Below the pieces are notes generated by a model. That model searched no databases, was not told where the DNA came from, and worked only from the letters and a program-made list of their open reading frames with translations. A program made the translations under genes and the position numbers. Shown here piece by piece: positions 2,422 through 46,833 of a stretch of DNA of 48,041 nucleotides. How positions within the stretch are numbered: the first letter of the stretch is position 1; each line of letters begins with the position of its first letter. The DNA comes from a virus: IMG/VR virus record IMGVR_UViG_3300028581_003708, positions 1 through 48,041 of that record. The stretch is one strand, 5' to 3'.

Positions 2422-2449
2422 ATAATAGTATACAACCATATGAAATCAA
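2422..2449 (-). promoter_or_regulatory. Sigma70-like promoter of uvsY-uvsW-55
   Basis: Minus-strand TTGATT (2449-2444), 16-nt spacer, TATTAT (2427-2422). The predicted +1 is at about 2415, two bases before the uvsY ATG, so the transcript would have almost no leader. It overlaps the first codons of the divergent gene at 2440. Confidence 0.55.
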
Positions 2450-2700
2450 TGAGTTTATTTGAATCAAAATTTTGCAAGCTTCTTGAAGAAGACAATGTTG
2501 CAGGTGGCGCAGAGAGCGCTTTTGGCACTGGCACTTTGGCTCCCATAGGTGATTTTGGTAACCAATTTCCCTCACAAAATGATGATGCATATGCACCAGG
2601 TGATGCCAGAATGCCAAAAGCATTGGGTGCAAAAAAAAGAAAAAAGAAAAAAGACAAATTCATAATACAGCGACGAGCACTACCAGGTCTTAGCATTTGA
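2440..2700 (+). CDS. Small basic protein mimicking the gp23 N-arm
   Basis: An 86-aa protein in three parts. Residues 5-17 (LFESKFCKLLEED) look like a T4 capsid-targeting leader ending in a gp21-type cleavage site. Residues 40-60 match residues 86-106 of the major capsid protein of this same phage at 18 of 21 positions, including FPSQND, AYAP and DAR. Residues 65-73 are a lysine-rich tract (KKRKKKKDK). The codons differ at most synonymous sites from gp23, so the similarity is not a recent copy. A second small gene at 45534 has the same plan. It is probably an internal or capsid-lining virion protein that binds DNA through the lysine tract. Function is inferred; the internal similarity is directly visible. 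Confidence 0.7.
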   Translation: MKSMSLFESKFCKLLEEDNVAGGAESAFGTGTLAPIGDFGNQFPSQNDDAYAPGDARMPKALGAKKRKKKKDKFIIQRRALPGLSI

Positions 2701-4185: not shown

Positions 4186-5292
4186 ATGCAAAAATATCGA
4201 AGCTTGCAGGATATTTATTTAAGCGAAAGTTTTGCAAAGTCGTTACCGCCTTTGCCTAGACAGACAATTAATTGGTTAATGGAAGCTATAGCTGATGCCC
4301 CGCCTCCTGCCCCAAATTCAGCTTATGTACAACTTTACGTAAAAGATCCTTCAAAAAATGAACAACAATTTGTAGGTAATATTGAAGTCGATTATTTTAA
4401 TAAGATTGTTAAGCCCGTTCTGAGTAGAGGTTCTGAGAGTGCTATAGATACCAACCGGTTAATAGAAAAGAGATTAAAAGATGCAAATATTACTACAGAG
4501 AATCTTAATCCTATTTTTGATTTTATTCAAGATACGCAGATGAAAATTACTACAGAAAACTTTGATAAGTGTCAGGGTATATTTAAAAGGTCTATAGCTG
4601 AAGAAGGGATTTTCTATATATCAAATATTCTTTCGGAAAGCTTTAATACAGCTGTAGAGAATATTACCAATAAATCTGATGAGTTGTTAAATTTGATGAG
4701 ATTAAGAGCACAAGGTGGATCTGCAGGGCATGGTAGTCGTAGTGAAGTGTCAGGTCCTGGTGAAGTTGTTCTCGCATTTTTTGGTAACGGTAGAAAAATG
4801 TCTATACAGAAAAGAAGAGGAATGCCTTCAGAAAAAGGAGATGTGTCGTTAGGAGAGCTTAGAATAGAATTAAAAGGTACAGAAGCAAGAATACATCCTG
4901 TTACTGAAATTAGATATACTTCTGAACATGGTACAGCAAAAAAAGGAGATTTTTTTAAAAAAACTATTAAAACAGATCCAAAGAGTGCAATAAAATACAT
5001 TGTTTTTGGAGAAGTAGGTCTGCAGAACAATAATTTTGATAATGAGTTAGATGTGGAATTAAAGACCGGTATTGACCCTGTTATTGTAGCAATAGGTCTT
5101 GCCTTAAGAGAGTATCAGGTATTAGCTAACTTTAACTATTATTGTTTTATTGACTCAAACCGGGCGACAGGGCTTGGACTTACATGCTCGGGTAAAAAAT
5201 TATCTGAAATTGGAAAATGGTTTACAACAAATGTTGGCAATTTACAATTTGACAGAGGTGGTCACAGGCTACCAGCAACCTTTAAGATATAA
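4186..5292 (+). CDS. PD-(D/E)XK-like nuclease with capsid-targeting leader
   Basis: A 368-aa protein. The N-terminal 38 residues contain YRSLQDIYLSES and then NWLMEAIADAPPPAP, where LME|A fits a gp21 cleavage site followed by a proline linker. The middle of the protein carries GDVSLGELRIELKGT: an acidic strand then E-x-K followed by GT, the layout of PD-(D/E)XK restriction-type nucleases. A nearby glycine/serine-rich stretch and MSIQKRRG could contact DNA. Codon and base use look more AT-rich (many AGA, TTA and GTT codons) than in flanking genes, suggesting later acquisition. It starts 1 nt after the previous stop and overlaps the next start. Nuclease activity is inferred from the motif alone; an unrelated structural role is possible. 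Confidence 0.6.
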   Translation: MQKYRSLQDIYLSESFAKSLPPLPRQTINWLMEAIADAPPPAPNSAYVQLYVKDPSKNEQQFVGNIEVDYFNKIVKPVLSRGSESAIDTNRLIEKRLKDANITTENLNPIFDFIQDTQMKITTENFDKCQGIFKRSIAEEGIFYISNILSESFNTAVENITNKSDELLNLMRLRAQGGSAGHGSRSEVSGPGEVVLAFFGNGRKMSIQKRRGMPSEKGDVSLGELRIELKGTEARIHPVTEIRYTSEHGTAKKGDFFKKTIKTDPKSAIKYIVFGEVGLQNNNFDNELDVELKTGIDPVIVAIGLALREYQVLANFNYYCFIDSNRATGLGLTCSGKKLSEIGKWFTTNVGNLQFDRGGHRLPATFKI

Positions 5293-6512
5293 TGATGACG
5301 TTTAAACAGTTTCTGCTTGAGGGCGGAGTTGCTGGACATATGGCACATCCTTTTGATCTGCCTAATGTCAATAGCGGCAGAGATCTTATTAACATCTTCA
5401 ATAAAATAGCCATCAGCTTGACCAAAAAGCCGTCTGCAGTAAAAATTGATGGTGTGAATGCTTCCATCAAACTCATCACCAACAGCAAAGGCAATAAAGA
5501 ATTTGCCATGGATCGTGGTTCCAACAAACCTGAGGACGTTGAAGGTGTTACCATTGACAAGCTTGCCTTGCGTTTTCCTGAGGGACATGGCATGAGAGAC
5601 ACAGGCAAGACAGTGTTGGAGATTTTTAATCAAGCGCTTCCTTCTGTAGAAAAACAACTCAAACAGTTGAAGATGTGGGATAATAACACCATTCTTTTCA
5701 ACATGGAGTTTGTCAAAGGTGCAACAAACGTGATTGGTTATGTGAATAATTTTCTTGCCATCCATGGATTGAATGAAATAGTGCAAGTGAAGAGCCCCAT
5801 TCGCGGAAGTGTGAGTCGCGCTTCACGCGAAGTGTCGTATGATAAAAAGGCTTTGCAATCATTCATAGAAACTATCAAGCCCATTGCTAAGAAACATGGT
5901 TTTGATGTTGTTAATGAATTTGCTGTTACTTTGACAAACAAGATTGATTTTAATCCAGAATTAAATTCCAAGTTTTCTGTAAGTTATGATTCACGCAACA
6001 TACAAGCACATCCTCTGAAGGACTGGTTGAGCAAGGCAAAGAATCCTCGTGCTGACAAGATCAAGCTGGCATCTGGCAAATCCATTGGTGCAATGAGTTT
6101 GGAGAATTATAAGAGCATGTCTGCAGGTGTGCCTTTGAATCATTATCTGGGTGCAAATGACAAGGACTATCAAAAAGCCATTGATGGTGCAGTGATGGTG
6201 CATGCAACCATCATGATGGGCCAAAAGATAAAGGATGCAGCAACTTCAGAATTGGGCAGTGTGGGTACACAAGAGGGCATTGTTATCAGAGATGCAAACA
6301 TATCAGTGAATCCATTGAAAATAACAGGCAATTTTTTCACAGGCAAAGAGACAGGGCGCATCAAACAACTCAAAACACAGGAACAAGAAGAAGGCATCCG
6401 GGGTCAACTTGCAAACACCAACCGAGTGCAAGACAGGACAAATTATCAGACAAATCCATTGGGTGGTAAGGAGGGTGGGCGAATGACATTGACACCAGGA
6501 ATGAACATATGA
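5292..6512 (+). CDS. Ligase-like nucleotidyltransferase with capsid-targeting leader
   Basis: A 406-aa protein starting MMTFKQFLLEGG, a near-ideal capsid-targeting leader with LLE|G as a gp21 site. The body carries signatures of the covalent nucleotidyltransferase superfamily (RNA/DNA ligases, capping enzymes): AVKIDGVNASI for motif I (KxDG, lysine nucleophile at about residue 51), LFNMEFV for motif III, TQEGIVIRD for motif IV and GRIKQLKTQ for motif V. Similar proteins of unknown role occur in marine T4-like phages (I recall the label DUF6267). It overlaps the preceding stop and the next start. Enzyme activity, substrate and packaging are inferred; the spacing from motif I to motif IV (about 290 residues) is longer than in classic ligases. 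Confidence 0.6.
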   Translation: MMTFKQFLLEGGVAGHMAHPFDLPNVNSGRDLINIFNKIAISLTKKPSAVKIDGVNASIKLITNSKGNKEFAMDRGSNKPEDVEGVTIDKLALRFPEGHGMRDTGKTVLEIFNQALPSVEKQLKQLKMWDNNTILFNMEFVKGATNVIGYVNNFLAIHGLNEIVQVKSPIRGSVSRASREVSYDKKALQSFIETIKPIAKKHGFDVVNEFAVTLTNKIDFNPELNSKFSVSYDSRNIQAHPLKDWLSKAKNPRADKIKLASGKSIGAMSLENYKSMSAGVPLNHYLGANDKDYQKAIDGAVMVHATIMMGQKIKDAATSELGSVGTQEGIVIRDANISVNPLKITGNFFTGKETGRIKQLKTQEQEEGIRGQLANTNRVQDRTNYQTNPLGGKEGGRMTLTPGMNI

Positions 6513-7162
6513 AATTTGATGTGCTAATAGAACAGATACTGCAACAACAAAAGAACAATCTGGTTGTTATTTTTCCGGGAAGATTTCAACCATTTCATGT
6601 GGGCCATAAGAAGCTTTATGATGCTGCCAAGCAAAAATTTCCAGGTGCAGATTTTTATGTGGCCACAGCAGATGCAACACAGAGCAATGTCAAGGAGCCA
6701 GATCGTTATCCTTTTAATTTTGCAGAGAAAAAGCAGATCATCCAAGCCACAGGCATACCAGAGAATGAGATTGCACTCACACCACAACCTTACAGACCCA
6801 TTGAAGTGTTGAAAAAATATGATCAAAATGTTGCGAAAGTGGTTTACATTGTTGGTGAAAAAGACATGAGAGAGAATGCAAGATTTTCATTCAAACCAAA
6901 GAAGGATGGCTCTGCATCTTATTTCCAGCCATTCAAAAGCTTGAATGAACTGGAGCCTTTCAAAGAACAAGGTGGGCATGGCTACATATATGCACCAGGC
7001 ACTGTACAGTTCAATGTGGGTGGCAAGAGCATCACTAGTGCCACAGAATTAAGAAACATGTACAAGACAGCAGATGAAGCAACAAGGAAGCAATACATCA
7101 AAGACACATTGGGCAAGTACGACCAGGGCATTTACAATTTATTCAATACCAAGCTGAGTTAA
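6509..7162 (+). CDS. NMN adenylyltransferase-like nucleotidyltransferase
   Basis: A 217-aa HxGH-type nucleotidyltransferase. Residues 20-36 read VVIFPGRFQPFHVGHKK, the nucleotide-binding motif, and SITSATELR near residue 175 matches the second family motif ((I/S)SxTxxR). These enzymes transfer AMP or CMP, as in NAD or CDP-alcohol synthesis. The leader MKFDVLIEQIL resembles the capsid-targeting helices of neighbouring genes but lacks a clear gp21 site (QILQQQ). It overlaps the previous gene by 4 nt and the convergent gene at 7159 by 4 nt. The nucleotide and acceptor cannot be decided from sequence; NMN adenylyltransferase is the best guess. A link to NAD repair after host defence is speculative. 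Confidence 0.65.
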   Translation: MKFDVLIEQILQQQKNNLVVIFPGRFQPFHVGHKKLYDAAKQKFPGADFYVATADATQSNVKEPDRYPFNFAEKKQIIQATGIPENEIALTPQPYRPIEVLKKYDQNVAKVVYIVGEKDMRENARFSFKPKKDGSASYFQPFKSLNELEPFKEQGGHGYIYAPGTVQFNVGGKSITSATELRNMYKTADEATRKQYIKDTLGKYDQGIYNLFNTKLS

Positions 7163-7731
7163 GTTTTGTTTTCAAGCAACACAATGGTCTCCATCAACAC
7201 CTTTTCAAGTGTTTCTCTGGATTCTTTTTTCAACACAGACCTCAACTGATTGACCAATGAATCCCCACCTTTTGCAATGGCTGCATACAGGTCTTCTTCA
7301 TTGTTCTCTTCCACACCCATCATTTCCATCTGACTGCGCGCTGCTTCATAATCTTTGTAATCAAAAACTGATTCCAGGTCATCATGTGCATTGGTGAGCT
7401 TGCTCAATACCCATGCTTCCACCTCACCACCTTTGCGTATGATATCATGCAGCATTGCTGACAGTTTAAAAATTCTAAACAAAAGCTGTTTGGACATGTA
7501 ATCATTCTTTTCTGTGTCTTCCAATCCATCTTGTGTTGCCATGGCACTATCGCATGATTCACAATCTTCACTCTCTCCATCACAATCTCTCTGCGGCACT
7601 TTGAAGCCCTGTATTTTTGTTGGTGAAGGTATTACATTCTCATTGTCTGCTTGTGGTCCAAGGCCAACACTTTCTTTGACAATCTGCAGATTGTAGATGT
7701 CATTCAACTGATGATAGTCCTTATGGAACAT
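7159..7731 (-). CDS. Hypothetical virion-type protein, 190 aa
   Basis: The N-terminus MFHKDYHQLNDIYNLQIVKES resembles the YRSLQDIYLSES leader of the nuclease at 4186, and VKE|S could be cleaved by the prohead protease. After an Asn/Pro/Gly-rich linker comes an acidic, cysteine-containing stretch (CDGESEDCESCDS, about residues 50-62). The remainder is helical and ends in a coiled-coil-like LRSVLKKESRETLEKVLMETIVLLE. I recall proteins of this type in marine T4-like phages without known function. A late-type box lies 5 nt before the start. It is convergent with the gene at 6509, overlapping by 4 nt. Confidence 0.65.
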   Translation of the reverse strand: MFHKDYHQLNDIYNLQIVKESVGLGPQADNENVIPSPTKIQGFKVPQRDCDGESEDCESCDSAMATQDGLEDTEKNDYMSKQLLFRIFKLSAMLHDIIRKGGEVEAWVLSKLTNAHDDLESVFDYKDYEAARSQMEMMGVEENNEEDLYAAIAKGGDSLVNQLRSVLKKESRETLEKVLMETIVLLENKT

Positions 7732-7736
7732 GTAAT

Positions 7737-7744
7737 TATTTATT
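7737..7744 (-). promoter_or_regulatory. Late-type box AATAAATA, 5 nt before ATG 7731
   Basis: Minus-strand T4 late-like box; predicted +1 coincides with the start codon of the 190-aa protein gene. Confidence 0.55.
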
Positions 7745-7771
7745 CAAATACAATGAAATTATTGCCATTAT

Positions 7772-7779
7772 AATAAGTA
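7772..7779 (+). promoter_or_regulatory. Late-type box variant AATAAGTA, 5 nt before ATG 7785
   Basis: One mismatch to the AATAAATA form, at the same 5-nt spacing. It is divergent from the box at 7737-7744. Confidence 0.35.
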
Positions 7780-7784
7780 TTACT

Positions 7785-8192
7785 ATGCAGCCATTCAAGG
7801 ATTTCTACAATAAACCTGTGTTGGGTGTGGATGAAGTCATCGATGTGGAAGGATTGGGTGTGGTCAAAGCCAAGGTGGACAGTGGCAATGAAGCGTACAA
7901 TGTGATCCATGGGGTGGATATTTCACAAGAAGGTGAAAACGTCTCTTTTACAACTGTAGGTGGAAAAAAAATGACTGCACCTAGAGATGGTGAGATAAAG
8001 ATACACATTGGCAGTGGTGTAAAGGAAGACAGGCCCACAGTGAAGCTCAACATCAAGATCAATGGCAAAGCATACAAAGATGTGACATTCAGTGTTGCTG
8101 ATCGTTCAGAAAATCAAGATCCTATTCTCATTGGTGAACCGTTTCTGAAGCAACTGAATGCAGTGATTGATGTGAACAAGGAAATAAAATAA
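7785..8192 (+). CDS. Retropepsin-like protein of the RimB/Zn_protease family
   Basis: A 135-aa protein resembling the retropepsin-like family once called ATP-dependent zinc protease (PF05618, RimB-type). The active-site-like segment VVKAKVDSGNEAYNVIHG (about residues 28-45) has DSG where the family commonly has DTG. FSVADRSENQDPILIGEPFL near the C-terminus matches the family's second conserved block. The start MQPFKDFYN resembles the leaders of neighbouring putative cargo proteins, but no gp21 site is obvious. It is followed 1 nt later by a structural gene. It could be a protease acting in the virion or after injection, or simply a retropepsin fold used structurally. Substrate unknown. Confidence 0.6.
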   Translation: MQPFKDFYNKPVLGVDEVIDVEGLGVVKAKVDSGNEAYNVIHGVDISQEGENVSFTTVGGKKMTAPRDGEIKIHIGSGVKEDRPTVKLNIKINGKAYKDVTFSVADRSENQDPILIGEPFLKQLNAVIDVNKEIK

Positions 8193-9009: not shown

Positions 9010-9651
9010 TTAATTCTGCGCAAACTCTACAAACTTGTAGAACTCAGCTCTGGAATTGTCATTGTTATCCAAGAACGCACCAGACATTCTGGCTGTGCGC
9101 ATGGTGGAATCATGACGGATGCCACGATTGGAACAACATGTGTGATTGGCTTCAATTAGCACTGCCACACCATTGTTCTTCTCACACACCAAATCAATGT
9201 GTGCATGAATTTGCATGGTGAGGTTTTCTTGCACCTGTGGACGACGAGCAAACCAATCCACCACCCGGTTGAGCTTGCTCAAACCAATGACCTTGCCTTC
9301 CTTGGATGGGATGTAAGCCACATGAGCCACTCCAGTGAAGGGTGCATGATGATGTGAACACAATGAAGTTAATTTGATGTTGTTTTGACACACCATGCCA
9401 TCATATTGATCAATGTTATCAAAAGCGGTGATTTTGGGAGGCAAGCTGTAACAACCCCATGCAAAGTCTTCCACAAAAGCCTTGGCCACTCGGTGCGGAG
9501 TGTTGTCACTGTTAGGATCATTTCTCCAATCATATCCTAAAGCATCCATGTAAGCTTCATAAGCCTTAGATGCTCTTTCAATGATTTGATCTCTTTCTTC
9601 TTGAGTATGAGGATGATTGTGATTAGCGAAAGCAAGTTTTACATTGGACAT
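9010..9651 (-). CDS. folE: GTP cyclohydrolase I (FolE)
   Basis: A 213-aa GTP cyclohydrolase I, which opens GTP to dihydroneopterin triphosphate, the first step of both folate and 7-deazaguanine synthesis. The zinc site is visible as LCSHHHAPF (Cys98, His101) and a later HTCCSNRG; KVIGLSKLNRVVDWFARRPQVQE is the family core, and RHDSTMRTARMSG the C-terminal motif. Length is normal. With queD, queE, queF and dpdA elsewhere in the window it most likely feeds DNA modification rather than folate. It has a TTGATC-N16-TATAAT promoter whose +1 falls on the ATG. The adjacent plus-strand gene ends at the base before its 3' end. Confidence 0.92.
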   Translation of the reverse strand: MSNVKLAFANHNHPHTQEERDQIIERASKAYEAYMDALGYDWRNDPNSDNTPHRVAKAFVEDFAWGCYSLPPKITAFDNIDQYDGMVCQNNIKLTSLCSHHHAPFTGVAHVAYIPSKEGKVIGLSKLNRVVDWFARRPQVQENLTMQIHAHIDLVCEKNNGVAVLIEANHTCCSNRGIRHDSTMRTARMSGAFLDNNDNSRAEFYKFVEFAQN

Positions 9652-11170: not shown

Positions 11171-11833
11171 ATGAAATACGAAAGTACAAAAATTATTGAA
11201 TTGGGTAGTTGCGCTTTTAGACAATGGAAGGCAGACAGTCACTGCAAATTTATACATGGATACAGACTAGTCGCGAAATTTCAGTTTGCATGCAATCGAT
11301 TGGATGAAAGAAATTGGGTGGTTGATTTTGGTGGCTTAAAGGCTCTCAAGCAAGTATTTGCAAAACAATTTGATCATACATTATGCATTGCAGCAGATGA
11401 TCCCTTGTTGGAAACATTCAAGCAATTGCATGCAACAGGTGCATGTGATTTGAGAGTCATGTCCAAAGGTGTTGGCATTGAAAGAACAGCAGAATATTGC
11501 TTTGATGTGGCTGATGCACATGTGAGAGGCATTACAAACAATAGATGCTGGGTGGAGAGAGTGGAAGTGTGGGAACATGATAAAAACTCTGCCATTGTTT
11601 CTTTTGATTCTGTTATTACACCTCAGCAAACAGGCAACACTGTGGCCACCACCATACAGGCACCCATCAATCAAGTGAAAGATTTCTTAGAAGATGTGGC
11701 TGCAGAAACAGGCATAAATGTGGCAAACATTCTCAAGAATGCTCCACCCCCTGCATCGCAAGGTGCACGTGTGGGTAACGTCACCACCACGAGTTATTCC
11801 AATTTGTTTGGAGGTACCAGCTGGGGCCAGTGA
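11171..11833 (+). CDS. queD: 6-carboxytetrahydropterin synthase (QueD-like)
   Basis: A 220-aa protein whose first 130 residues are a QueD/PTPS domain, the second step of 7-deazaguanine synthesis. Seen are CAFRQWKADSHCKFIHGYRL (Cys14, His24, Cys25, His29), NWVVDFGGLK and QFDHTL (the family DF and DH motifs). The usual HGH zinc motif is HGY here, so one metal ligand is replaced or supplied elsewhere. I recall other phage QueD-like proteins with the same form. The C-terminal 80 residues are an extension ending in a low-complexity NAPPPASQG and TTTSYSNLFGG stretch. The stop overlaps the start of the next small gene (TGATG). Confidence 0.82.
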   Translation: MKYESTKIIELGSCAFRQWKADSHCKFIHGYRLVAKFQFACNRLDERNWVVDFGGLKALKQVFAKQFDHTLCIAADDPLLETFKQLHATGACDLRVMSKGVGIERTAEYCFDVADAHVRGITNNRCWVERVEVWEHDKNSAIVSFDSVITPQQTGNTVATTIQAPINQVKDFLEDVAAETGINVANILKNAPPPASQGARVGNVTTTSYSNLFGGTSWGQ

Positions 11834-12009
11834 TGGATGCAGAAACCAAGCAGCAGTTGTATGGTGGTGAGATAAGTGATTTTCTGCCCAAGAAAGCAGA
11901 AAAAGAATTAAAAGACGATTACAAAGCTATTGAGGACATATATCTCAATTTGAAAAAGAAATCACTTAAATTTGATGCTCGCGATTACCTTGACAATAAA
12001 CTTGAGTAG
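11833..12009 (+). CDS. Small acidic/basic protein coupled to queD, 58 aa
   Basis: A 58-aa frame whose ATG overlaps the queD stop (TGATG), the usual sign of translational coupling. The product is highly charged and helical (KAEKELKDDYKAIEDIYLNLKK). Its last 48 nt overlap the 3' end of phoH on the other strand. No family recognised; it may assist QueD or simply be a small late addition. Confidence 0.5.
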   Translation: MDAETKQQLYGGEISDFLPKKAEKELKDDYKAIEDIYLNLKKKSLKFDARDYLDNKLE

Positions 12010-18401: not shown

Positions 18402-19000
18402 GCAAACACTCTCCAAAACCAAAGCTTTCCATCCTGATACCTTCCACACCCAACAGAGTGGCAGGCAAGATGCTTGAGTTGTTTAATTGTCTTGAAAAAC
18501 AAGTTAATAAATTATCCAATCCTAATGATGTTGAGCTGCTAGTATTGCTGGACAATAAAAAACGCTCCATAGGATTCAAGCGCGAATCATTGCTATATAT
18601 TGCACGTGGTGATTTTGTTGCTTTCATGGATGATGACGACATGGTACATGATTTTTATATTGAGGAAGCTGTGAGAGCAATTGACGCGCATCCTGAGGTG
18701 GACGTTATTACTTTCAAAGAGTATGTGTATATAAATGATTCACCGCGGTATGAATTGACCTTTGAACTTGGCTATCCGAAAAATGACGCTGTACAGATTC
18801 CAGATGCAAAGCGGCCACCATGGCACTGTTGTTTCTGGAAGAGGACCTTGGCACAGAAGTACCACTTTCCAGACCTAATGTATGGTGAGGATTGGGCTTG
18901 GGCATCACAAATCAATCAAGAAGCAAAAACAAGCCATCACATAGATAAATTCATGAGAACTTACAAGTATAATGACACTGTCACAGAAGCCATTGAATAG
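18398..19000 (+). CDS. Glycosyltransferase, family 2-like (short)
   Basis: A 200-aa protein with LSILIPSTPNRVAGKMLELFNCLE at the start, ELLVLLDNKKRSIGFKRESLLYIARGDFVAFMDDDD (FMDDDD is the DxD metal site) and a C-terminal MYGEDWAWASQI, where ED-W is the catalytic-base region of family 2 enzymes. It is shorter than typical because the C-terminal extension is missing. It overlaps the previous gene by 4 nt. The best family 2 match of the four genes. Confidence 0.75.
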   Translation: MSKHSPKPKLSILIPSTPNRVAGKMLELFNCLEKQVNKLSNPNDVELLVLLDNKKRSIGFKRESLLYIARGDFVAFMDDDDMVHDFYIEEAVRAIDAHPEVDVITFKEYVYINDSPRYELTFELGYPKNDAVQIPDAKRPPWHCCFWKRTLAQKYHFPDLMYGEDWAWASQINQEAKTSHHIDKFMRTYKYNDTVTEAIE

Positions 19001-19008
19001 CATAGTTA

Positions 19009-19824
19009 ATGAAGCGTATTGCTAATTTTACCCAAACATACAAGGGAAACTCACATTGGTCACCAGGCAGTGATGGTAAGAGCAGAGATTTTCTCATTGA
19101 AGCATTATGTAAAAATTCGGGAAAAATTAATGCTATGCAGTTGCTTGATTATCAAACACTCAATTTTCATAACATGGACGTTGAGCACTGCAAAACCTTA
19201 GCACAACAAATCAAAACCGTATTACCAGACTGTGAATTTTTTGTTTATAAAAATATGAGTTTTGGAAGCACAATATTAAAGCACATGCATCATTTAAAAG
19301 AAAAAGGCATTTCTGATGTGTTGTGGGTGCAGGATGATGAATTCTTTACACATACAAATTTTAAAGATTTTGAAACGTTAATTACTTTCTACAGAAATAC
19401 ACCAGAAGTTAAACATATAAATTTACTCAATCGTCTTGAAGATAATACACAAATAAACGCATATGCCCAGCACAAGGGCATATCACCAGTTGACAGTATA
19501 CAAGTTACAAATAATATCATATTACACAAAACCCATGCACGTGACATTGAGCCTGCTAATAATTACGTAATGGATTTCTCCGCTTTTATTTGTGACATAG
19601 ATTATTTTCTTGATAAAATGTATGATGCATCATTCATTGATCACCTTGATGCATACAGACTAGAAGGTGCAGTAAATGCAAAATGCTTACAAAACAATGT
19701 GCAGCGGTTCTTCACCAACATAAATTTCTTTGAATCGTTCAACATTGTTGGCATGCCACCTTCACTTGGCCATGGACCTGCAGCACTAGCGCGTCTCAAA
19801 AAAATAGTAATAAAAGATGCTTGA
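19009..19824 (+). CDS. Glycosyltransferase-like hypothetical protein
   Basis: A 271-aa protein. ISDVLWVQDDEFFTHTNFKDFETLI contains a DDE that could serve as the DxD site, preceded by a region like the nucleotide-binding half of a GT-A fold (TQTYKGNSHWSPGSDGKSRDFLIEAL). The C-terminal part has no recognisable family motif. Position as the last of four similar genes supports the call, but the sequence alone is weak. It ends 30 nt before the next gene, the gap being filled by a promoter. Confidence 0.5.
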   Translation: MKRIANFTQTYKGNSHWSPGSDGKSRDFLIEALCKNSGKINAMQLLDYQTLNFHNMDVEHCKTLAQQIKTVLPDCEFFVYKNMSFGSTILKHMHHLKEKGISDVLWVQDDEFFTHTNFKDFETLITFYRNTPEVKHINLLNRLEDNTQINAYAQHKGISPVDSIQVTNNIILHKTHARDIEPANNYVMDFSAFICDIDYFLDKMYDASFIDHLDAYRLEGAVNAKCLQNNVQRFFTNINFFESFNIVGMPPSLGHGPAALARLKKIVIKDA

Positions 19825-27902: not shown

Positions 27903-28574
27903 ATGGCTTTACGTCTATTAGTCGAAACACCAGCTCCAGAGGAACAGTTCGAATACATCCTGGAAGAGAAAAATTCCAAAGGGCCTGCGCGCCTTTACAT
28001 TCAAGGCCCTTACATGGTTTGCAATGAAGTGAACAAGAATCAAAGGATTTATGAGAAGACGGACATGGAACGTGAAGTGAACCGTTACATCAAGGAAATG
28101 GTCAATTCAAAACGCTCCATGGGTGAATTGAATCATCCCACCTCTGCAGAAGTGAATCTCGAAAGAGCTTGTCACATTGTGACAAATTTAAAAACTGAAG
28201 GCAATTATGTCATAGGCAAATCACAAGTGCTGTCCACTCCCATGGGTCAAATTGTGCGTTCTCTTATCAATGACGGTGTTAAAGTGGGAATGTCCAGTCG
28301 TGCTCTTGGCAAATTAAATGAAGAAGCAGGTGGTGTGAACCGTGTCACTGACATGCGCTTGATTGCCATTGATTGTGTTGCTGATCCATCGTGCCCCAAA
28401 GCGTTTGTCAATGGCATTCTGGAAAGCAAGCAGTATGTGCTTGCTGCTGATGGCCAGCTTGAAGAAGTGTTTGAACGCTTTGAAAACACTCTCAAAACAT
28501 TGCCTGGCAGAGAAGTGCAAGCATATCTTAAAGAACAAATTCTTTCCTTCTTTAAACATCTCAAGGCAAATTAA
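27903..28574 (+). CDS. 21: Prohead core protease gp21
   Basis: A 223-aa serine protease of the T4 gp21 type, which cleaves scaffold, capsid and internal proteins at (L/I)-x-E sites during head maturation. Visible are GELNHP (His78) and GMSSRA (Ser131 or Ser132) of the catalytic machinery and MRLIAIDCVADPSCPKAFVNG. The N-terminus contains LLVE and YILE, likely self-cleavage sites. Its presence is the basis for reading LLE|G-type sites in the putative cargo proteins of this window. Length is close to T4 gp21. Confidence 0.93.
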   Translation: MALRLLVETPAPEEQFEYILEEKNSKGPARLYIQGPYMVCNEVNKNQRIYEKTDMEREVNRYIKEMVNSKRSMGELNHPTSAEVNLERACHIVTNLKTEGNYVIGKSQVLSTPMGQIVRSLINDGVKVGMSSRALGKLNEEAGGVNRVTDMRLIAIDCVADPSCPKAFVNGILESKQYVLAADGQLEEVFERFENTLKTLPGREVQAYLKEQILSFFKHLKAN

Positions 28575-28793: not shown

Positions 28794-29681
28794 ATGGAAA
28801 ACAACAATATATCAAGTGTTCTTAGAGAAGCAACCAAAGACATTCTCACAGAGGATGTGCTCAAGGAAATCGAAGCCGCTTTTAACAACACAGTAAATGA
28901 AAGAGTACAATTGCACGTTGAAAAAGCTTTATCAGAGCAAGACACAGATTATTCAAAAAAGCTGGAAACACTCATTGAAGCTATTGACACTGATCATACA
29001 GATAAGCTCAAAAAAGTTGTTGAAGCTATTGATGCTGATCGTGCTGAAAAGCTTAAGACTGTTGTTGAAAAATATGAGACAGCGCTGAACAATGAAGCTG
29101 CTGCATTTAAATCTTCCATGGTGGACAAAGTGAGCAAGTTCCTCGATATTTATATTGATGAGAAATTACCCACTGCTGCCATTAATGAAGCTGTGAAGAA
29201 TAAGAGAGCTGTTGCGCTTCTCGAAGATCTTCGCAAGGTTCTTTCAGTAGACATGATTCTCGCGAAAGATAACATCCGCGATGCCATTGTTGATGGAAAG
29301 ACAAAAATTGATGAAGCTGCTAGTCAGCTTGAAGCCGCTAATAAGCAGGTTGCAAAGTTAACTGATGAGAATGCTAAGTTAGCTTCTAAGGTCGTCTTAG
29401 AAGGTAAAATATCAGATCTCGATGAAGACAGAAGGGCTTACATGAAGAAAATGTTCAATGGCAAGTCATCTGAGTTCATCAAAGAGAACTTTGATTACAC
29501 ACTCAATTTATTTGAGAAAACTGAAGAAGAGCGTCTTTCTAATCTTAAGACAGAAGCCGTGACAGAATCTGTAACAACCAATGTTGACAGACCTGTTATT
29601 GAAGAATCAGCTTCTGATCTCATTCATGAAGAACCCTCACCCGCGTTTGGTTTCTACATGAATGAGCTTAAAAAATACTAA
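28794..29681 (+). CDS. 22: Prohead scaffold protein gp22
   Basis: A 295-aa, highly charged, helical protein in the scaffold position between the protease and capsid genes. The N-terminus has VLREATKDILTED, with LTE|D as a gp21 site. Residues 56-97 contain about three 15-residue repeats (KLETLIEAIDTDHTD, KLKKVVEAIDADRAE, KLKTVVEKYE...), a coiled-coil-like spacer. The C-terminal end, EEPSPAFGFYMNELKKY, is the type that contacts the shell protein. In T4, gp22 is degraded to peptides after assembly. Confidence 0.88.
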   Translation: MENNNISSVLREATKDILTEDVLKEIEAAFNNTVNERVQLHVEKALSEQDTDYSKKLETLIEAIDTDHTDKLKKVVEAIDADRAEKLKTVVEKYETALNNEAAAFKSSMVDKVSKFLDIYIDEKLPTAAINEAVKNKRAVALLEDLRKVLSVDMILAKDNIRDAIVDGKTKIDEAASQLEAANKQVAKLTDENAKLASKVVLEGKISDLDEDRRAYMKKMFNGKSSEFIKENFDYTLNLFEKTEEERLSNLKTEAVTESVTTNVDRPVIEESASDLIHEEPSPAFGFYMNELKKY

Positions 29682-29766: not shown

Positions 29767-31275
29767 ATGTCAAAACAAATTCGTCCTACACAGGCTTACA
29801 TCGATGAGTCGCGTGCCAAAGTATTGCTCGAAAAATGGGGTCCAGTATTGGATTACTCTTCGAACAATGTGGCACCGATTGAAGATGATCATACACGTTT
29901 GAACACCGCCATCCTTTTGGAAAACCAAGAGAAGTGGTGTTTTGAAGCTAATCAGTCAGGTGGTTCATCCACACTAGGAAACGGTGTTTTTGCTGGCGGA
30001 TCGGTTTATCCCGGTTCACAAGGCAATCAATTCCCTTCCCAGAATGACAGTGCTTATGCTCCAAACGATGCACGTCTCCCTAAGATCCTCATCCCCATGA
30101 TCCGCCGTACGTTCCCTGAGTTGATCACTAACGAAATCGTTGGTGTTCAGCCCATGAGCGGTCCTGTAGGTCTCGCTTTTGCTCTACGTTATAAGTACGA
30201 AGGTACTGCTCTTGGTAGCACAAACGGCAGAGGATCAGATGGTTCATTAACCAATGGTTCATTTGCTGGTGGTCCGCAACATCAGTCTTCTGGTGCCGAA
30301 TTAGGTTACCAATACCTAGATTCTCGCTTTACTGGCGTTTCATCGTCTGCCCTCTCGGGTAACGATTTCTTCTCCATAAAAGCTCAGGATCGAGGTGTTG
30401 CTCAGTTGCTAGCCAACTTTGAGTTAACCTCCAACATTCCCCAGGTCGTAGTTAGCTTCGAAAAGACAGCCGTTGAGGCTGGTACTCGTAGGCTCGCTGC
30501 CCGCTGGTCTGTTGAACTCGAGCAGGATCTTAAGAACATGAACGGCATTGATATCGATACCGAACTCACCAACGCCATGTCGTATGAGTTGCAGGCCGAA
30601 ATCGACCGTGAAATGATCATTCGTATGATCCAAACAGCCCTAAACGCTGGCTTAGGAACAGGCTTCTCAGTCTGGTCCCCTGCCTCCGCAGATGGCCGTT
30701 GGCTCGTTGAGCGCAATCGCGACTTCTATCAGAGACTAATTGTTGAGGCTAACAGAATTGCTGTTCGTAACCGCCGTGGTTCGGCAAATTTCATTGTGGC
30801 AACACCTCGTGTGTGCGCCATTCTTGAGATGCTGCCCGAATTCCAGTGGGTTCCGGTACAGGGTAATGTTAACACTCAGCCCGTTGGCGTTGCCAAGGTA
30901 GGTTCACTTGCTGGTCGGTTTAACGTATACCGCGATACACGTACAGAAGCACAGGCTGAAGCCCACGCCGGAGGAAACTTCGGCGGTGACGGTGGGTTCC
31001 CCACCGGTACAACGCGCTCAGGCCCTCGTCTCGAGTACGCTCTCCTTGGTTACAAGGGTCCGGAATTCTACGACACTGGTATCATCTATTGTCCGTACAT
31101 TCCGGTAATGGTTCAGAGAACTATTGGTCCTAATGATTTTGCTCCTAGAGTCGGTCTATTAACACGTTATGGTGTGGTAGACAACATCTTCGGCGCAAAT
31201 CTTTACTACCATGTAATTATCTTGACCGGTCTCGGTGTTGCGTTCCAGCCTGGAACACAATCAGTCTACTTCTAA
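29767..31275 (+). CDS. 23: Major capsid protein gp23
   Basis: A 502-aa T4-type major capsid protein (HK97 fold). Typical segments: PMIRRTFPELITNEIVGVQP, MSGPVGLAFALRYKY, ARWSVELEQDLKNMNGID, YELQAEIDREMIIRMI and YKGPEFYDTGIIYCPYIPV. A removable N-terminus (about 60 residues) has LLEKWGPVL and LLENQEKWCFE, with maturation cleavage most likely after one of these glutamates. Residues 86-106, just after the cleavage region, are the segment copied in the small protein at 2440. Codon use is richer in C-ending codons than the rest of the window, as expected for the most highly expressed protein. Confidence 0.97.
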   Translation: MSKQIRPTQAYIDESRAKVLLEKWGPVLDYSSNNVAPIEDDHTRLNTAILLENQEKWCFEANQSGGSSTLGNGVFAGGSVYPGSQGNQFPSQNDSAYAPNDARLPKILIPMIRRTFPELITNEIVGVQPMSGPVGLAFALRYKYEGTALGSTNGRGSDGSLTNGSFAGGPQHQSSGAELGYQYLDSRFTGVSSSALSGNDFFSIKAQDRGVAQLLANFELTSNIPQVVVSFEKTAVEAGTRRLAARWSVELEQDLKNMNGIDIDTELTNAMSYELQAEIDREMIIRMIQTALNAGLGTGFSVWSPASADGRWLVERNRDFYQRLIVEANRIAVRNRRGSANFIVATPRVCAILEMLPEFQWVPVQGNVNTQPVGVAKVGSLAGRFNVYRDTRTEAQAEAHAGGNFGGDGGFPTGTTRSGPRLEYALLGYKGPEFYDTGIIYCPYIPVMVQRTIGPNDFAPRVGLLTRYGVVDNIFGANLYYHVIILTGLGVAFQPGTQSVYF

Positions 31276-31797: not shown

Positions 31798-32718
31798 TCA
31801 CTGACGAACTGTCTTAGTAAAGTATTTCCATTTATCCCACATAGCATGATTCTGTTTTAATAGCTCTTGGCTATTGGCTCTAATAGGATTAATGTCAATA
31901 CCGCCTCGTCTAACATACAAGCATGATACCATTAGTTCTTCTGGTTTAACTAAATCATATAACCGCTTATATATAGTCTCGCAAATTTCTTCATGAAAAT
32001 GACATTCATCTCTAAATGAGACAATGTACTGTAATAACGAGGTTTGATTAAGCTGATAAGGTCCTTTGTAATGAATGTACACATCCCCCCAATCCGGTTG
32101 GGATGTGACCCTGCAATTACTCTTTAAAAGGGCTGAATGAAAGCGTTGTACTTTATTAGAATCACCTTCAGTCCAGCCAAGTAAGGAGGGGTCTTCTTTA
32201 TAACCGCGAGATTTAATTGACGTTACGTCAATATTATTTTCCAAAGTAGGGTAGTTAGCGCTCGAGAATAAAGGTGGATAATACATCGTATCATCAACAG
32301 CTTTTGCTAATCTAACACAAACTCTAACTTCTGTTTCTAATAGTTTAGATAAATCATTTTCCATTACGGCTTCAAGCTGTTGTAATACACTAATAATATT
32401 ACCCTGATACTTCTCCATATTGAATGTATTCATATAGAGTTTAATAGACTTTGATTCAACAATATATTTGTTAGTAGCAGGATATACAACCTTAGCAATA
32501 GCAGCAATAGGCATTCCTTCATTAGTTAAACAAGACACTTCATAAGCATTCCAGATATCATAACCACAGAATGGAGGATTATCATCACTGATATCCAGAT
32601 GCTTTCTATTATTCTGTCTCGGCTCACGAACCAAAAGTGAGGGGTCGTAGGTACATTTATACCCAGTTATTTTACCAAGATGCTTTGATATATTACTGTT
32701 ATCTAATTCCGTATTCAT
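31798..32718 (-). CDS. queF: 7-cyano-7-deazaguanine reductase (QueF)
   Basis: A 306-aa two-domain (E. coli-type) QueF, which reduces the nitrile of preQ0 to the aminomethyl of preQ1 with NADPH. The catalytic region is SNCRVTSQPDWG (Cys202, Asp209). ESKSIKLYMNTFN (from Glu88) is the NADPH/substrate motif of the first domain, and FHEEICETIYKRL with RRGGIDINPIR are typical of the C-terminal domain. It is the last gene of the dpdA operon. In this setting preQ1 should be destined for DNA, not tRNA. It overlaps the preceding kinase gene by 20 nt. Its DNA is more AT-rich than the operon average. Confidence 0.93.
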   Translation of the reverse strand: MNTELDNSNISKHLGKITGYKCTYDPSLLVREPRQNNRKHLDISDDNPPFCGYDIWNAYEVSCLTNEGMPIAAIAKVVYPATNKYIVESKSIKLYMNTFNMEKYQGNIISVLQQLEAVMENDLSKLLETEVRVCVRLAKAVDDTMYYPPLFSSANYPTLENNIDVTSIKSRGYKEDPSLLGWTEGDSNKVQRFHSALLKSNCRVTSQPDWGDVYIHYKGPYQLNQTSLLQYIVSFRDECHFHEEICETIYKRLYDLVKPEELMVSCLYVRRGGIDINPIRANSQELLKQNHAMWDKWKYFTKTVRQ

Positions 32719-43541: not shown

Positions 43542-43569
43542 ATTATATGAACTTGTTTATCTATATCAA
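43542..43569 (-). promoter_or_regulatory. Sigma70-like promoter of gene 43535 (and nrdA)
   Basis: Minus-strand TTGATA (43569-43564), 16-nt spacer, TATAAT (43547-43542). Predicted +1 is 43535, the A of the start codon. The -35 lies within the end of the upstream gene. Confidence 0.6.
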
Positions 43570-44057
43570 CCGTTTATTCGCTTGACAAGCTCCGCCAATA
43601 ATACAATAAAAATAGATGTAACAGATGCAAGTGCAGATGTTGTAAGCGCCGTTTTAAAATTCCATGTACCAGTTACCTCTGTATTGCGACGTCCAAATTC
43701 GCTTGCTATTTGTGTGGAAATGTTATTGAATCTCTCAGTAACCACCTCAGTGATATGCTTGAACTTGAGTTCCATTTCTTTTTCTAAATTATTAATCTTA
43801 GCCTCAAAATTATTATCGATATTTTTAATCTTATCATTTACAAAATTAACCAAATCTCCTGTGCGTGTTTTAATTTCACTGTCTAAATCTTCTATTTGTG
43901 CGCCAAGGCTTTCATGATGCGACTTAAGCTTGCCTTCAAGATTGGAGAGCTGTGTTAAAATTGAAGGCTTGCCATTGCCCTGATAAACAACCCTGTATAC
44001 TTGCTGCACATCATCTTGTAACTTTTTTATTGTACTATTTCCAGATTTTTTACGCAT
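43566..44057 (-). CDS. Coiled-coil protein with C-terminal membrane segment
   Basis: A 163-aa protein: long coiled coil (residues about 35-125, for example IEDLDSEIKTRTGDLVNFVNDKIKNID), then TGTWNFKTALTTSALASVTSIFIVLLAELVKRING, a single hydrophobic helix followed by a basic end. The topology suggests a tail-anchored membrane protein with the coiled coil in the cytoplasm. It could be a lysis or superinfection protein; no family is recognised. It starts 1 nt after the preceding gene. Confidence 0.6.
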   Translation of the reverse strand: MRKKSGNSTIKKLQDDVQQVYRVVYQGNGKPSILTQLSNLEGKLKSHHESLGAQIEDLDSEIKTRTGDLVNFVNDKIKNIDNNFEAKINNLEKEMELKFKHITEVVTERFNNISTQIASEFGRRNTEVTGTWNFKTALTTSALASVTSIFIVLLAELVKRING

Positions 44058-44343: not shown

Positions 44344-45537
44344 ATGGCCAATACAATTACAAAGATATTAATCCGTCAGGGCACAGATGTTCAAAGAAGA
44401 ACAGCAGAACTAACTGGCATTGTGTTCAGTAGTGGCGAGCCAGGTTATTGTGTGGATACCAAGCGCTTGTTTATTGGCGACGGATCCACATCAGGTGGTT
44501 GGCCAATTGGCATTCAAAATTTAGGATCAGTAGAATCACTGTATGGTACTTGGCAAAACGGATTTTCGTTTGATACCATAACAAAATTCAATGACAAAGG
44601 CGCATCAGTAGGAGATATTATATATGATCGAGACACACGGTCATTGTATTCATTGACCAGTGTTTCAACTTTTCCACCCCTATCAACTGATGTGGTTAAA
44701 TATGATTTTGCCACGCTCATCAATGATCAACAGTTTGTTTTTGATGAAAATAATAATTTAAACATTAAGAATGGTGGTGTTGGCAATGCACAGTTAAGCT
44801 TGAGCATCGTGGATGGAATCACGCTTTTCAAGCCATCATATGCAGCTGCTGTGTCTGTGAAGCTCAAAGGAATAGATAATACCCGGCTTGCAAATGCTCC
44901 AGGTTACACAGTCAAAGGCAACAGCACTGGGGTTGACAACTCACCTGCAGACATTTATGTTGGTCCAGGGCAATTGGTGGGCAGAACTGCAACCTCAGTG
45001 CTCACAGCATTTCCATTCAGTGTGGTTCTGTCTGAGGCCAGCTTCAATTACACAAATGGCATCATAGTTGATCAAGCAGCTGCGCCACCAGTGTTTAAGC
45101 TGGATGAAGCTAAATTTACAATCACATCCACAACCATAGCATTGCTCAAGCCCACCACAGTAACTGGTAATTTTACTGTCAATGGCACATCACAGGTGAA
45201 TGGTACACTAAGATGCACAGGTGATATAATTGCTTATTATTCACCCTCAGATATTAACAGCAAAGAAAATATTAAACTCATTGAATCACCATTGCAAAAG
45301 ATTCTGGGCATAGCTGGATACAGCTTCACATGGAGGGCAGGCATAGAGAATGATGATGTACTCACAGGAAAAGATTATGGTGTAATAGCACAAGAGGTTG
45401 AGAAGATAATTCCTGAAGCAGTTGTTACTCGTGAGAATGGCACCAAATCCGTTAATTATATCAAACTGATACCTCTTCTCATAGAAAGCATAAAAGAACT
45501 CAAAAAAGAAGTTGACATTTTAAAAGCAAATAAATGA
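44344..45537 (+). CDS. Tail-fibre protein with S74 chaperone domain
   Basis: A 397-aa fibre-type protein. The N-terminal ILIRQGTDVQRRTAELTGIVFSS, then GEPGYCVDTKRLFIGDGST, is the phage attachment domain seen in Mtd-like fibre proteins. The middle is Thr/Val/Asn-rich. The C-terminal 100 residues form an S74 intramolecular chaperone: SDINSKENIKLIESPLQKI, DYGVIAQEVEKIIPEAVVTREN and SVNYIKLIPLLIESIKELKKEV. In this family the domain trimerises the fibre and cuts itself off at the conserved Ser of the SD-x-N-K-x-N motif. It overlaps the next start by 4 nt. Confidence 0.85.
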   Translation: MANTITKILIRQGTDVQRRTAELTGIVFSSGEPGYCVDTKRLFIGDGSTSGGWPIGIQNLGSVESLYGTWQNGFSFDTITKFNDKGASVGDIIYDRDTRSLYSLTSVSTFPPLSTDVVKYDFATLINDQQFVFDENNNLNIKNGGVGNAQLSLSIVDGITLFKPSYAAAVSVKLKGIDNTRLANAPGYTVKGNSTGVDNSPADIYVGPGQLVGRTATSVLTAFPFSVVLSEASFNYTNGIIVDQAAAPPVFKLDEAKFTITSTTIALLKPTTVTGNFTVNGTSQVNGTLRCTGDIIAYYSPSDINSKENIKLIESPLQKILGIAGYSFTWRAGIENDDVLTGKDYGVIAQEVEKIIPEAVVTRENGTKSVNYIKLIPLLIESIKELKKEVDILKANK

Positions 45538-45719
45538 AGTTTGATCAAACAGTGAAACAGTTGCTGGAAGGGTTCAATGTGATGCCTCAGATGCAAACAG
45601 CTCCCAGCACTGGTCCTGATCAAGGCATGACAACAGGTGATCAACAGAACACATTTCCTAGCAAGATGGAGACATTGCAAGTAACATTGCCTAGGAAGAA
45701 GAAGAAGAAAAAACGTTAG
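45534..45719 (+). CDS. Small basic protein, gene 2440 type
   Basis: A 61-aa protein built like the one at 2440: MKFDQTVKQLLEGF (leader with LLE|G), a Pro/Gln/Thr linker, QNTFPSKMETLQ, and a C-terminal LPRKKKKKKR. FPS occurs at the place of FPSQND in the capsid-mimic protein. It may be a cleaved, DNA-binding internal head protein. It overlaps the fibre gene by 4 nt, and its stop overlaps the convergent cell-wall hydrolase gene by 4 nt. Confidence 0.6.
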   Translation: MKFDQTVKQLLEGFNVMPQMQTAPSTGPDQGMTTGDQQNTFPSKMETLQVTLPRKKKKKKR

Positions 45720-46249
45720 CGAACGTTTTTTAGAAATGTGTGATGTCCAATGGTGTTGGTTACAACAGCTTGTGGGTTCTTGCCACCTACTGCAGGATTG
45801 CTCCACTTGGGGTTCACTTTGCCTGGACCACTGGACACATGATAATGTGTTGCACCATCTGTAATATCATTAAGTTTACCGGATAAACCTGCAAGAGCTA
45901 TGCTACGAGCTTTGTTCCAGTTGGAGTGCTTTGAGGCACGTTGAATTATTTGATTCATTTCTTCTTTACCTGCATTATAGTTATTAAAAAAGCTAAACTG
46001 CTTAGGTTTTAAAACATTACTTATAGCACCACGGACAAGGTCATTAGACCCTTTTGCTCTGTTGACAATAACATTCATTACAGCATGCATACCTTTCTCG
46101 CCCTCACCACCTGCTTCACCAATCAATGCTGCTGCAATCACATCAATGTTGGTTGCAGGCGCCTGTGCTTTCTGCACAATGGCAGGAGGCGGCGGAGGTA
46201 CATCCGCAGCTGCCTCCAACAACTTCTCAAATGTCTCTTTGAATCGCAC
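45716..46249 (-). CDS. SleB-type cell-wall hydrolase with capsid-targeting leader
   Basis: A 177-aa protein. The GTG start gives MRFKETFEKLLEAAADVPPPPP: leader, LLE|A gp21 site and proline linker. The rest is a SleB/Hydrolase_2 peptidoglycan hydrolase: IAAALIGEAGGEGEKGMHAVMNVIVNRAK (the Glu of GEA is the likely catalytic residue), LKPKQFSFFNN, KLNDITDGATHYHV and HHTFLK. No signal peptide, so it would not act as a simple secreted endolysin. It may be packaged in the head or tail and act at entry. The late-type box ATTAAATA at 5 nt supports the GTG start. Confidence 0.75.
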   Translation of the reverse strand: MRFKETFEKLLEAAADVPPPPPAIVQKAQAPATNIDVIAAALIGEAGGEGEKGMHAVMNVIVNRAKGSNDLVRGAISNVLKPKQFSFFNNYNAGKEEMNQIIQRASKHSNWNKARSIALAGLSGKLNDITDGATHYHVSSGPGKVNPKWSNPAVGGKNPQAVVTNTIGHHTFLKNVR

Positions 46250-46254
46250 CTAAT

Positions 46255-46262
46255 TATTTAAT
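46255..46262 (-). promoter_or_regulatory. Late-type box ATTAAATA, 5 nt before GTG 46249
   Basis: Overlaps the end of the preceding gene; spacing supports the GTG start of the hydrolase gene. Confidence 0.4.
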
Positions 46263-46833
46263 TTAAAATGGCCACCTTTACAATGTTTGGATGTGTGTCT
46301 GCAAAGTCAATGGCATCACTCTTGTTGACAAAAAACACATCAATCACAGGCAGTTTGCCTCCAGAAGCAACCTTGTTCTTCACTGCAGTGCCAGTGTCCA
46401 CTGCTCTCACCAGGCCCACATTGGGTATGATCACTTCTTTGTCATAAGGAATGATGCGTGGATCCACTGCAATAGAGTCACCTTGTTTGAGTGTGTAGCC
46501 TGTGGAGCTTCTCATTCTGCGACTGTCAGCATCTGTGTCACCACCCCGTGCCCAGTACACAGTCAATCGGACTGTGATCACTTTGTATTCACTGCTGTCA
46601 GTCTTGGGAATGAAGATGCCATTGTATTTTATGCCATCTTTTTTTACTTCAATCTGCTTGGCAGCTTGTTGTTCTTTGGAGGGGGTCAGAGATTTTAATT
46701 CTTTCTTCATGTCACCAACTGTGAGCTTCCTTTCAATGCGCTGAAAAGCCGACATGCTTATAGGATTGGCTGTTACAATCAGTCCTATGACTATTAATAA
46801 TAGCTTGTTTGTTTTTGTGTTTTTTGTTTTCAT
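46258..46833 (-). CDS. Secreted 3D-domain (lytic transglycosylase-like) protein
   Basis: A 191-aa protein with an N-terminal signal peptide or anchor (KTNKLLLIVIGLIVTANPISMSA) and a C-terminal double-psi barrel of the 3D type: ITVRLTVYWARGGDTDADS, DSIAVDPRIIPYDKEVIIP, VRAVDTGTAV and VIDVFFVNKSDAI. The three Asp (AVDP, AVDTG, IDVFF) match the catalytic set of MltA/3D proteins. It probably acts in the periplasm or outer cell wall at lysis. It is next to the SleB-type gene, suggesting a lysis or entry pair. Confidence 0.75.
   Translation of the reverse strand: MKTKNTKTNKLLLIVIGLIVTANPISMSAFQRIERKLTVGDMKKELKSLTPSKEQQAAKQIEVKKDGIKYNGIFIPKTDSSEYKVITVRLTVYWARGGDTDADSRRMRSSTGYTLKQGDSIAVDPRIIPYDKEVIIPNVGLVRAVDTGTAVKNKVASGGKLPVIDVFFVNKSDAIDFADTHPNIVKVAILN

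Follow-up and report, generated by a model that had tools for sequence, protein, structure and literature searches.

Introduction

In phage T4, the internal proteins IPI–III and Alt carry a capsid targeting sequence (CTS) (Mullaney and Black 1996; review, PMC9026906). According to that review, targeting depends on positions 4 and 7 of the IPIII leader, and positions 8 and 10 are important for processing. The P1 protein DarB is described as having an N-terminal signal that loads it into the head (PMC9024508). T7 gp16 is a head-ejected internal protein with a transglycosylase domain (PMC8954989), and polyvalent proteins have been predicted to be packaged and injected with the DNA, with lysozyme-type domains suggested to breach peptidoglycan at invasion (Iyer et al. 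2017, PMC5512222). We considered the latter paper as a precedent for PF07486 and set it aside, since the domain that its text places under PF07486 is 'SpoIID-like', yet SpoIID is PF08486 in Pfam. The SleB-like protein CB7_83 of phage CB7 (Vequintavirinae) is reported with a signal peptide, and a homologue has been implicated in lysis (PMC7344957).

Here we analysed a SleB-type peptidoglycan hydrolase with a short N-terminal leader, encoded in a 48,041-nucleotide stretch of viral DNA (IMG/VR record IMGVR_UViG_3300028581_003708, positions 1 to 48,041; hereafter the window). The leader, its recurrence on unrelated proteins and the T4-type head genes of the window are compared below with the systems described above.

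Results

The hydrolase consists of a leader, a proline-rich linker and a SleB-type domain

The hydrolase gene (45716..46249, minus strand) has a GTG start and encodes 177 residues, with the N-terminus MRFKETFEKLLEAAADVPPPPP. Residues 48–172 match Pfam Hydrolase_2 (PF07486) with an E-value of 1.1e-11 and 45.7 bits against a cut-off of 27. Pfam revealed this single domain in the hydrolase, whereas polyvalent proteins are defined by at least two unrelated domains per polypeptide. The AlphaFold2 model, built from a nine-sequence alignment, has a mean pLDDT of 84. It starts with a low-confidence helix at residues 2–15, followed by proline-rich disorder, with the linker at residues 13–33 (AAADVPPPPPAIVQKAQAPAT; 46151..46213, minus) showing a pLDDT below 50 over residues 14–29. 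The catalytic domain (residues 34–177; 45719..46150, minus) begins at about residue 34 and is mostly above 90. Among solved structures, Foldseek matched the model best to catalytic domains of SleB, namely 4fet, with an E-value of 5.1e-4 and a TM of 0.73 by target length, and 4f55, with an E-value of 7.4e-4. Sequence alignment revealed that Glu45 in the motif GEAGGE is invariant in all nine aligned relatives, and that the motif aligns with GESRGE of Bacillus SleB, giving the form GE(A/S)xGE; we take this glutamate to be the catalytic residue. The profile score above the family cut-off, the SleB fold and the retained motif glutamate place the protein in the SleB/Hydrolase_2 family. The domain appears intact, and peptidoglycan cleavage is its predicted activity.

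Residues 1–12 form the leader MRFKETFEKLLE (46214..46249, minus), a putative T4-type capsid targeting propeptide for which profiles, capsid-arm comparison and relatives suggest cleavage after Glu12. A search with the hydrolase protein against cultured phages gave no match at 1e-5. A profile scan of IMG/VR yielded 40 loci, including a close group of 15 (L101–L115, 58–99% identity) that contains the near-duplicates L103/L104 and L107/L115.

The hydrolase lacks an export signal and adjoins a protein with a hydrophobic start

The preliminary description of this locus had read the hydrolase as beginning with the leader, an alanine and a proline-rich linker in place of an export signal, and our analysis confirmed the ORF, the N-terminus and its position. 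The codon directly 5' of the GTG start is an in-frame TAG, which makes an upstream signal peptide impossible in this frame. Over the first 40 residues of the hydrolase, the highest 11-residue Kyte-Doolittle mean is 1.01. By the same measure, the upstream neighbour of a 99%-identical relative (L101) reaches 3.27. This neighbour stands in for the 3D-domain protein of the window (46258..46833, minus; PF06725, E=2e-6), the first 45 residues being the same. In the close group, the maximal values range from -0.33 to 1.41 for the hydrolase N-termini (n=14) and from 2.21 to 3.91 for the upstream neighbours (13/13). The contrast between a signal-less hydrolase and a neighbour with a hydrophobic start, which had been noted earlier as a signal peptide at 46258, is therefore real and conserved, with a signal-peptide-like N-terminus kept in every upstream neighbour measured. 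An upstream ORF with a hydrophobic start occurs in 15/15 close relatives, and the 3D domain was found by Pfam search in 9/9 records tried; the conserved neighbour of the hydrolase carries a predicted export-type N-terminus. Two more distant homologues, L008/L119 and L009, begin instead with a hydrophobic stretch that resembles an export signal or membrane anchor.

Endolysins released by holins usually have no signal peptide. The absence of a signal peptide, which had been offered as an argument for delivery with the virion, consequently carries no weight by itself, and the argument for head targeting rests on the leader.

A second, longer 3D-domain protein was also observed, at 6357-8147 (minus) of L088 (G005), at ~32963 in G014, at ~18000 in G006 and at ~70850 in G007. 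The G005 protein adjoins a gp5-like gene and is possibly a tail-tip lysin. In G005 and G014, this further 3D-domain protein has ~600 residues, and these phages may already possess an entry enzyme in it. A second 3D match was not found in the window or in G009.

The leader recurs on proteins with unrelated bodies

Similar N-termini precede unrelated bodies in other proteins of the window, namely MSLFESKFCKLLE (2449), MMTFKQFLLE (5292), MAQFNDKYEELLE (15208) and MKFDQTVKQLLE (45534). The second belongs to a 406-residue protein (5292..6512, plus), in which the leader is followed by GG and stands in the register of T4 IPIII; neither Pfam nor PHROG matched this protein at E <= 0.01. The last belongs to a small basic protein of 61 residues (45534..45719, plus), convergent with the hydrolase, in which the leader is followed by G and the tail is KKKKKKR. 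An aromatic or hydrophobic leader followed by [LIV]-x-E, the form expected of a CTS, is present in the hydrolase and in 14 of its 15 close relatives. Inspection by eye found no such leader on three structural proteins of the window: the gp5-like protein, the portal and the tail sheath stabiliser.

A loose regular expression for the leader was dropped as evidence and replaced by profiles, because it also matched the cytosolic lysozyme e of T4 and T4 proteins not known as head cargo. The first profile (13 columns) was built from 12 non-hydrolase leaders, neighbouring small proteins included, and ranked 809 N-termini. Of the seven hydrolases included, five took ranks 8, 10, 12, 14 and 18, and those of G005 and G003 fell outside the best 60. 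The held-out head protein T4 Alt ranked 19th; among the first 20, at least two entries seem unrelated. Within single genomes, the hydrolase ranked 4th of 188 N-termini in G009 and 4th of 83 in G014.

The stricter profile was trained on the leaders of capsid-copy proteins (see below) and on T4 ipII/ipIII only, without the hydrolase or its neighbour, and ranked 1168 N-termini. The hydrolases of G001, the window and G009 were found at ranks 10, 12 and 13, followed by those of G007 (33), G006 (38) and G002 (42), and further down by those of G015 (118), G005 (131), G014 (155), G012 (156) and G013 (318). The GH108 enzyme of G005, read from an internal start, ranked 112th, above these last five hydrolases, which belong to the GH108 subclade. 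The window's 3D neighbour was placed 610th. T4 Alt was placed 285th, indicating that this profile also misses a true leader. When residues 2–16 were shuffled 5000 times, the score was reached by 2 shuffles for the window, 1 for G009, 4 for G007, 8 for G006 and 11 for G002, compared with 68 for L108, 243 for L113 and 536 for L110. The leader of the window hydrolase thus resembles those of internal head proteins beyond chance, while the same is not clearly so for the GH108-bearing subclade.

A second recurrent N-terminus, approximately M.KD..LI(F/Y)EAY, was observed in G009 (83824, 134462 and 150332), G007 (12649 and 17228), G002 (15094), G003 (4681) and the window (47379), and could represent another leader class.

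T4-type head genes and copies of the capsid N-arm

A CTS calls for an S77 prohead protease and gp23 in the same phage, and the window encodes both. The prohead protease of the T4 gp21 type (Peptidase_S77; 27903..28574, plus) matches PF03420 (E=6.3e-34) and phrog_207 (E=6.3e-59), and is followed by a probable head scaffold (28794..29681, plus; T4_CASP, below the Pfam cut-off). The major capsid protein gp23 (29767..31275, plus; PF07068, E=1.5e-87) has a putative propeptide end at ...KWCFE, followed by ANQ. The portal gp20 (PF07230, E=2.5e-103) and the tail sheath stabiliser gp15 are also encoded. The gp5-like protein gave an OB-domain match and no lysozyme domain by Pfam, a weak negative as Pfam alone was used. 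The cultured gp23 matches are headed by cyanophages at ~33% identity, and all 2494 lie below 60%. The S77 protease was found in 6 of the 20 records searched, and was not found in the fragments G005, G006, G007 and G012.

Six genomes of four lineages, including T4, encode a protein in which a leader is joined to a copy of the N-arm of the phage's own major capsid protein. In the window, this protein (2440..2700, plus) has 86 residues, with the leader ...SLFESKFCKLLE followed by the capsid-arm copy and KKRKKKK. Its counterparts are located at 4982-5227 (minus) in G005, 96164-96424 (plus) in G009 and 69388-69624 (plus) in G014, and are gp61.1 in T4 (18966-19130, minus) and SSM2_108 in S-SM2 (91376-91804, plus). 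A lysine-rich stretch follows the copy in 5/6, and the 142-residue S-SM2 protein continues otherwise. The local scores of the copies to their own capsid N-terminus are 69–164, and none of 1000 shuffles reached the score in any of the six, while the scores between lineages are 20–78. The capsid of another phage from the same subclade can outscore the own one: the window copy gives 122 with the window capsid and 140 with that of G009, and the G005 copy gives 154 with the G005 capsid and 164 with that of G014.

In five of the six pairs, a glutamate directly precedes the copied stretch in the leader protein and in the capsid; the window pair is one residue off, with LLE then E in the leader protein and CFE then A in the capsid. 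In T4, residue 66 of gp23 is where the copy begins, and a length of 65 residues is given for the propeptide of gp23 (PMC5694885). The cleavage site is mapped in T4, and those of the other capsids are predicted. The end of the leader is thus fixed by homology to the mature capsid N-arm. Deposited annotations already label some gp61.1 homologues as 'major capsid domain-containing', so the resemblance of gp61.1 to the capsid has not gone wholly unnoticed. The capsid-copy proteins may line the capsid interior or tune assembly.

Conservation among close and distant relatives

The leader M[RQ]F...[LIV]xE is present in 14/15 close relatives, with the hydrophobic-x-E triplet falling at residue 9 to 13 as LLE, ILE, LNE or VNE. 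The capsid boundary of G005 likewise shows VNE. In 15/15, the hydrolase lies next to a small convergent ORF that is rich in lysine and bears a leader. The one relative lacking the M[RQ]F leader (L106, in G003) has another N-terminus, similar to the window protein 11830-12009, and retains KE followed by AIDLPPPPP. In this locus (L003/L106; G003 1499-2140, minus), the leader is replaced by ~49 residues similar to that window protein, which could be a natural fusion or an assembly chimera.

Six distant homologues were picked for their long ORFs (L116, L121, L122, L124, L126 and L129). All six carry NUDIX and Hydrolase_2, three carry ART-PolyVal, and two have a poly(A)-polymerase or tRNA nucleotidyltransferase part. 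Some distant homologue N-termini look leader-like by eye, such as MKPLTYKLYFQE in L120. The L122 contig encodes gp23 with no S77 match and the L127 contig encodes both, and neither was found in eight other distant-homologue contigs (13,049 to 76,165 bases). The C-terminal tail of L127, the SleB-type protein of G024, was considered as a capsid-arm copy and rejected, the comparison by eye with the G024 capsid N-arm giving no convincing match.

Lysis genes and alternative roles of the hydrolase

Six of the 16 records (G005 and G011–G015) encode a GH108 enzyme, which in G005 also has a peptidoglycan-binding domain. GH108 was absent from the remaining ten, including G009 (157,857 bases), the contigs being fragments. 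GH24 and Amidase_2 were not found in 8/8 records. The window clade, G009 included, thus showed no endolysin of these three families, and its hydrolase may therefore be needed for lysis.

This is the main argument for an ordinary cytosolic endolysin, released late by a holin and without a role in the particle, whose leader would be a short helix of other use. The signal-less state normal for endolysins and the adjoining 3D-domain protein with its export-type N-terminus also agree with it, and two of the three PHROG matches of the hydrolase are named endolysin. SleB-like proteins elsewhere have been placed among lysis proteins, with the homologue CR3_087 implicated in the accounts cited (PMC7344957, PMC11370258). 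We nevertheless regard this explanation as less likely than packaging in the head. Small head-type proteins that are not enzymes have leaders matching that of the hydrolase, whereas T4 lysozyme e, a cytosolic enzyme, ranks only 572nd of 1168 in the stricter profile, and known SleB-like relatives carry export signals instead of the leader. In addition, all six GH108-bearing records keep the hydrolase with its M[RQ]F leader, which suggests that in these phages it is not simply their endolysin. The GH108-bearing phages are those with the weaker leaders, so this last argument rests on less secure leaders.

A double use, in which the unprocessed cytosolic enzyme would lyse the host and a share would be loaded into heads for the next infection, would reconcile the leader evidence with the lack of another recognised endolysin of the three families in the window clade; as the GH108 subclade would have no need of a second lysis role, we consider it improbable. 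Loading of the enzyme by a genuine leader onto the baseplate or tail, by analogy with the T4 entry lysozyme, which sits on the baseplate (gp5, by annotation), is very improbable, given that the same kind of leader precedes capsid N-arm copies and T4 internal head proteins, and that the three structural proteins inspected by eye in the window lack it.

Several other features of the window were observed. The product of 43566-44057 (minus), on the hydrolase strand, shows by eye a coiled coil and a C-terminal transmembrane stretch, and is possibly holin-like. The motif TATAAATA, which we take to resemble the T4 late promoter core, was counted 6 times in the window, where 2.36 occurrences would be expected; 3 of 100 shuffles had as many, and no occurrence lies at the hydrolase gene. 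In five of the 11 relatives examined (L108–L112), the motif begins some twelve bases upstream of the GTG; we gave it no weight as evidence. A 7-deazaguanine pathway for DNA or tRNA modification is suggested by genes of the QueF type (31798-32718) and for GTP cyclohydrolase I (9010-9651).

Discussion

We favour packaging of the hydrolase in the head with a role at entry, to which we assign a probability of roughly 0.55; on the sequence evidence, delivery with the virion is probable. The computational results themselves comprise the intact domain, the leader common to unrelated proteins, the agreement of its end with the capsid propeptide boundary, the head genes and the conservation among relatives. 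From these we infer packaging, cleavage, ejection and the entry role as follows. The hydrolase would be made as a precursor with a T4-type CTS, the 12-residue leader would bind the prohead core, and the S77 prohead protease would cut after LLE. The trimmed enzyme would stay in the mature head on its flexible proline-rich N-terminus, and at infection it would leave with the DNA and cut peptidoglycan at the entry site. This model further assumes that the enzyme can get from the head into the periplasm. Given the signal peptide of CB7_83, the weak leaders in phages with GH108 and the ambiguous PF07486 citation, we place less weight on head packaging, more on an endolysin and slightly more on another location in the virion.

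The head-targeting leader proposed in the preliminary description is supported by inference from the common leader, the capsid-arm boundary and the T4-type head genes. The accompanying proposal of a clean division of labour, with one enzyme delivered with the virion and the other exported during lysis, is uncertain, because the window clade showed no further murein hydrolase of the three families.

If head packaging is true, a contractile-tailed T4-type phage carries its wall-opening enzyme in the head and not at the tail tip. The leader, combined with a cleavage point set by capsid homology, would provide a sequence rule for predicting which proteins enter the host with the DNA in uncultured T4-like phages, and the capsid-arm copies would offer an independent, genome-only means of locating prohead protease sites.

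Precedents exist for capsid targeting sequences, for hydrolases carried in the head (T7 gp16) and for polyvalent proteins with wall-lytic domains. A stand-alone hydrolase behind a natural T4-type leader was not found among the papers listed from the open-licence literature. We tentatively propose that the stand-alone wall hydrolase of the window naturally bears a T4-type capsid-targeting leader and would act as a peptidoglycan opener delivered from the head of a contractile-tailed phage, within a wider cargo system of this lineage that includes the capsid-arm copy proteins. The design of these small proteins, with leader, capsid N-arm copy and lysine-rich stretch, is found also in T4 gp61.1 and, without a lysine stretch next to the copy, in a cyanophage.

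Comparison with Bacillus SleB and PF07486 revealed a common fold and GE(A/S)xGE motif, whereas the window hydrolase has no export signal and carries the leader and proline-rich linker in that place. CB7_83 is likewise a SleB-like phage hydrolase, but as described it has a signal peptide and a placement in lysis instead of the leader. The six distant homologues, with NUDIX and PF07486 and in three cases ART-PolyVal, show the make-up of polyvalent proteins as Iyer et al. present them, whereas the window protein has one domain and a leader of its own. The DarB signal, which its source places between 9 and 30 residues, is described with no consensus among Dar proteins and with no wall hydrolase, unlike the window leader. 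T7 gp16 is the nearest working parallel in the published account, being an enzyme in the head that is ejected to open peptidoglycan, but by another route: it comes from another phage type, and its hydrolase is one domain of a 1318-residue ejection-tunnel protein. The T4 CTS, as reviewed, shares with the window a short aromatic N-terminal leader, an [LI]-x-E site, unrelated cargo and an S77-type protease. In T4, foreign enzymes were put behind the CTS in the laboratory; in the window, the cargo is a stand-alone peptidoglycan hydrolase, and its 12-residue leader has Phe3 and Phe7 where IPIII has Tyr4 and Phe7.
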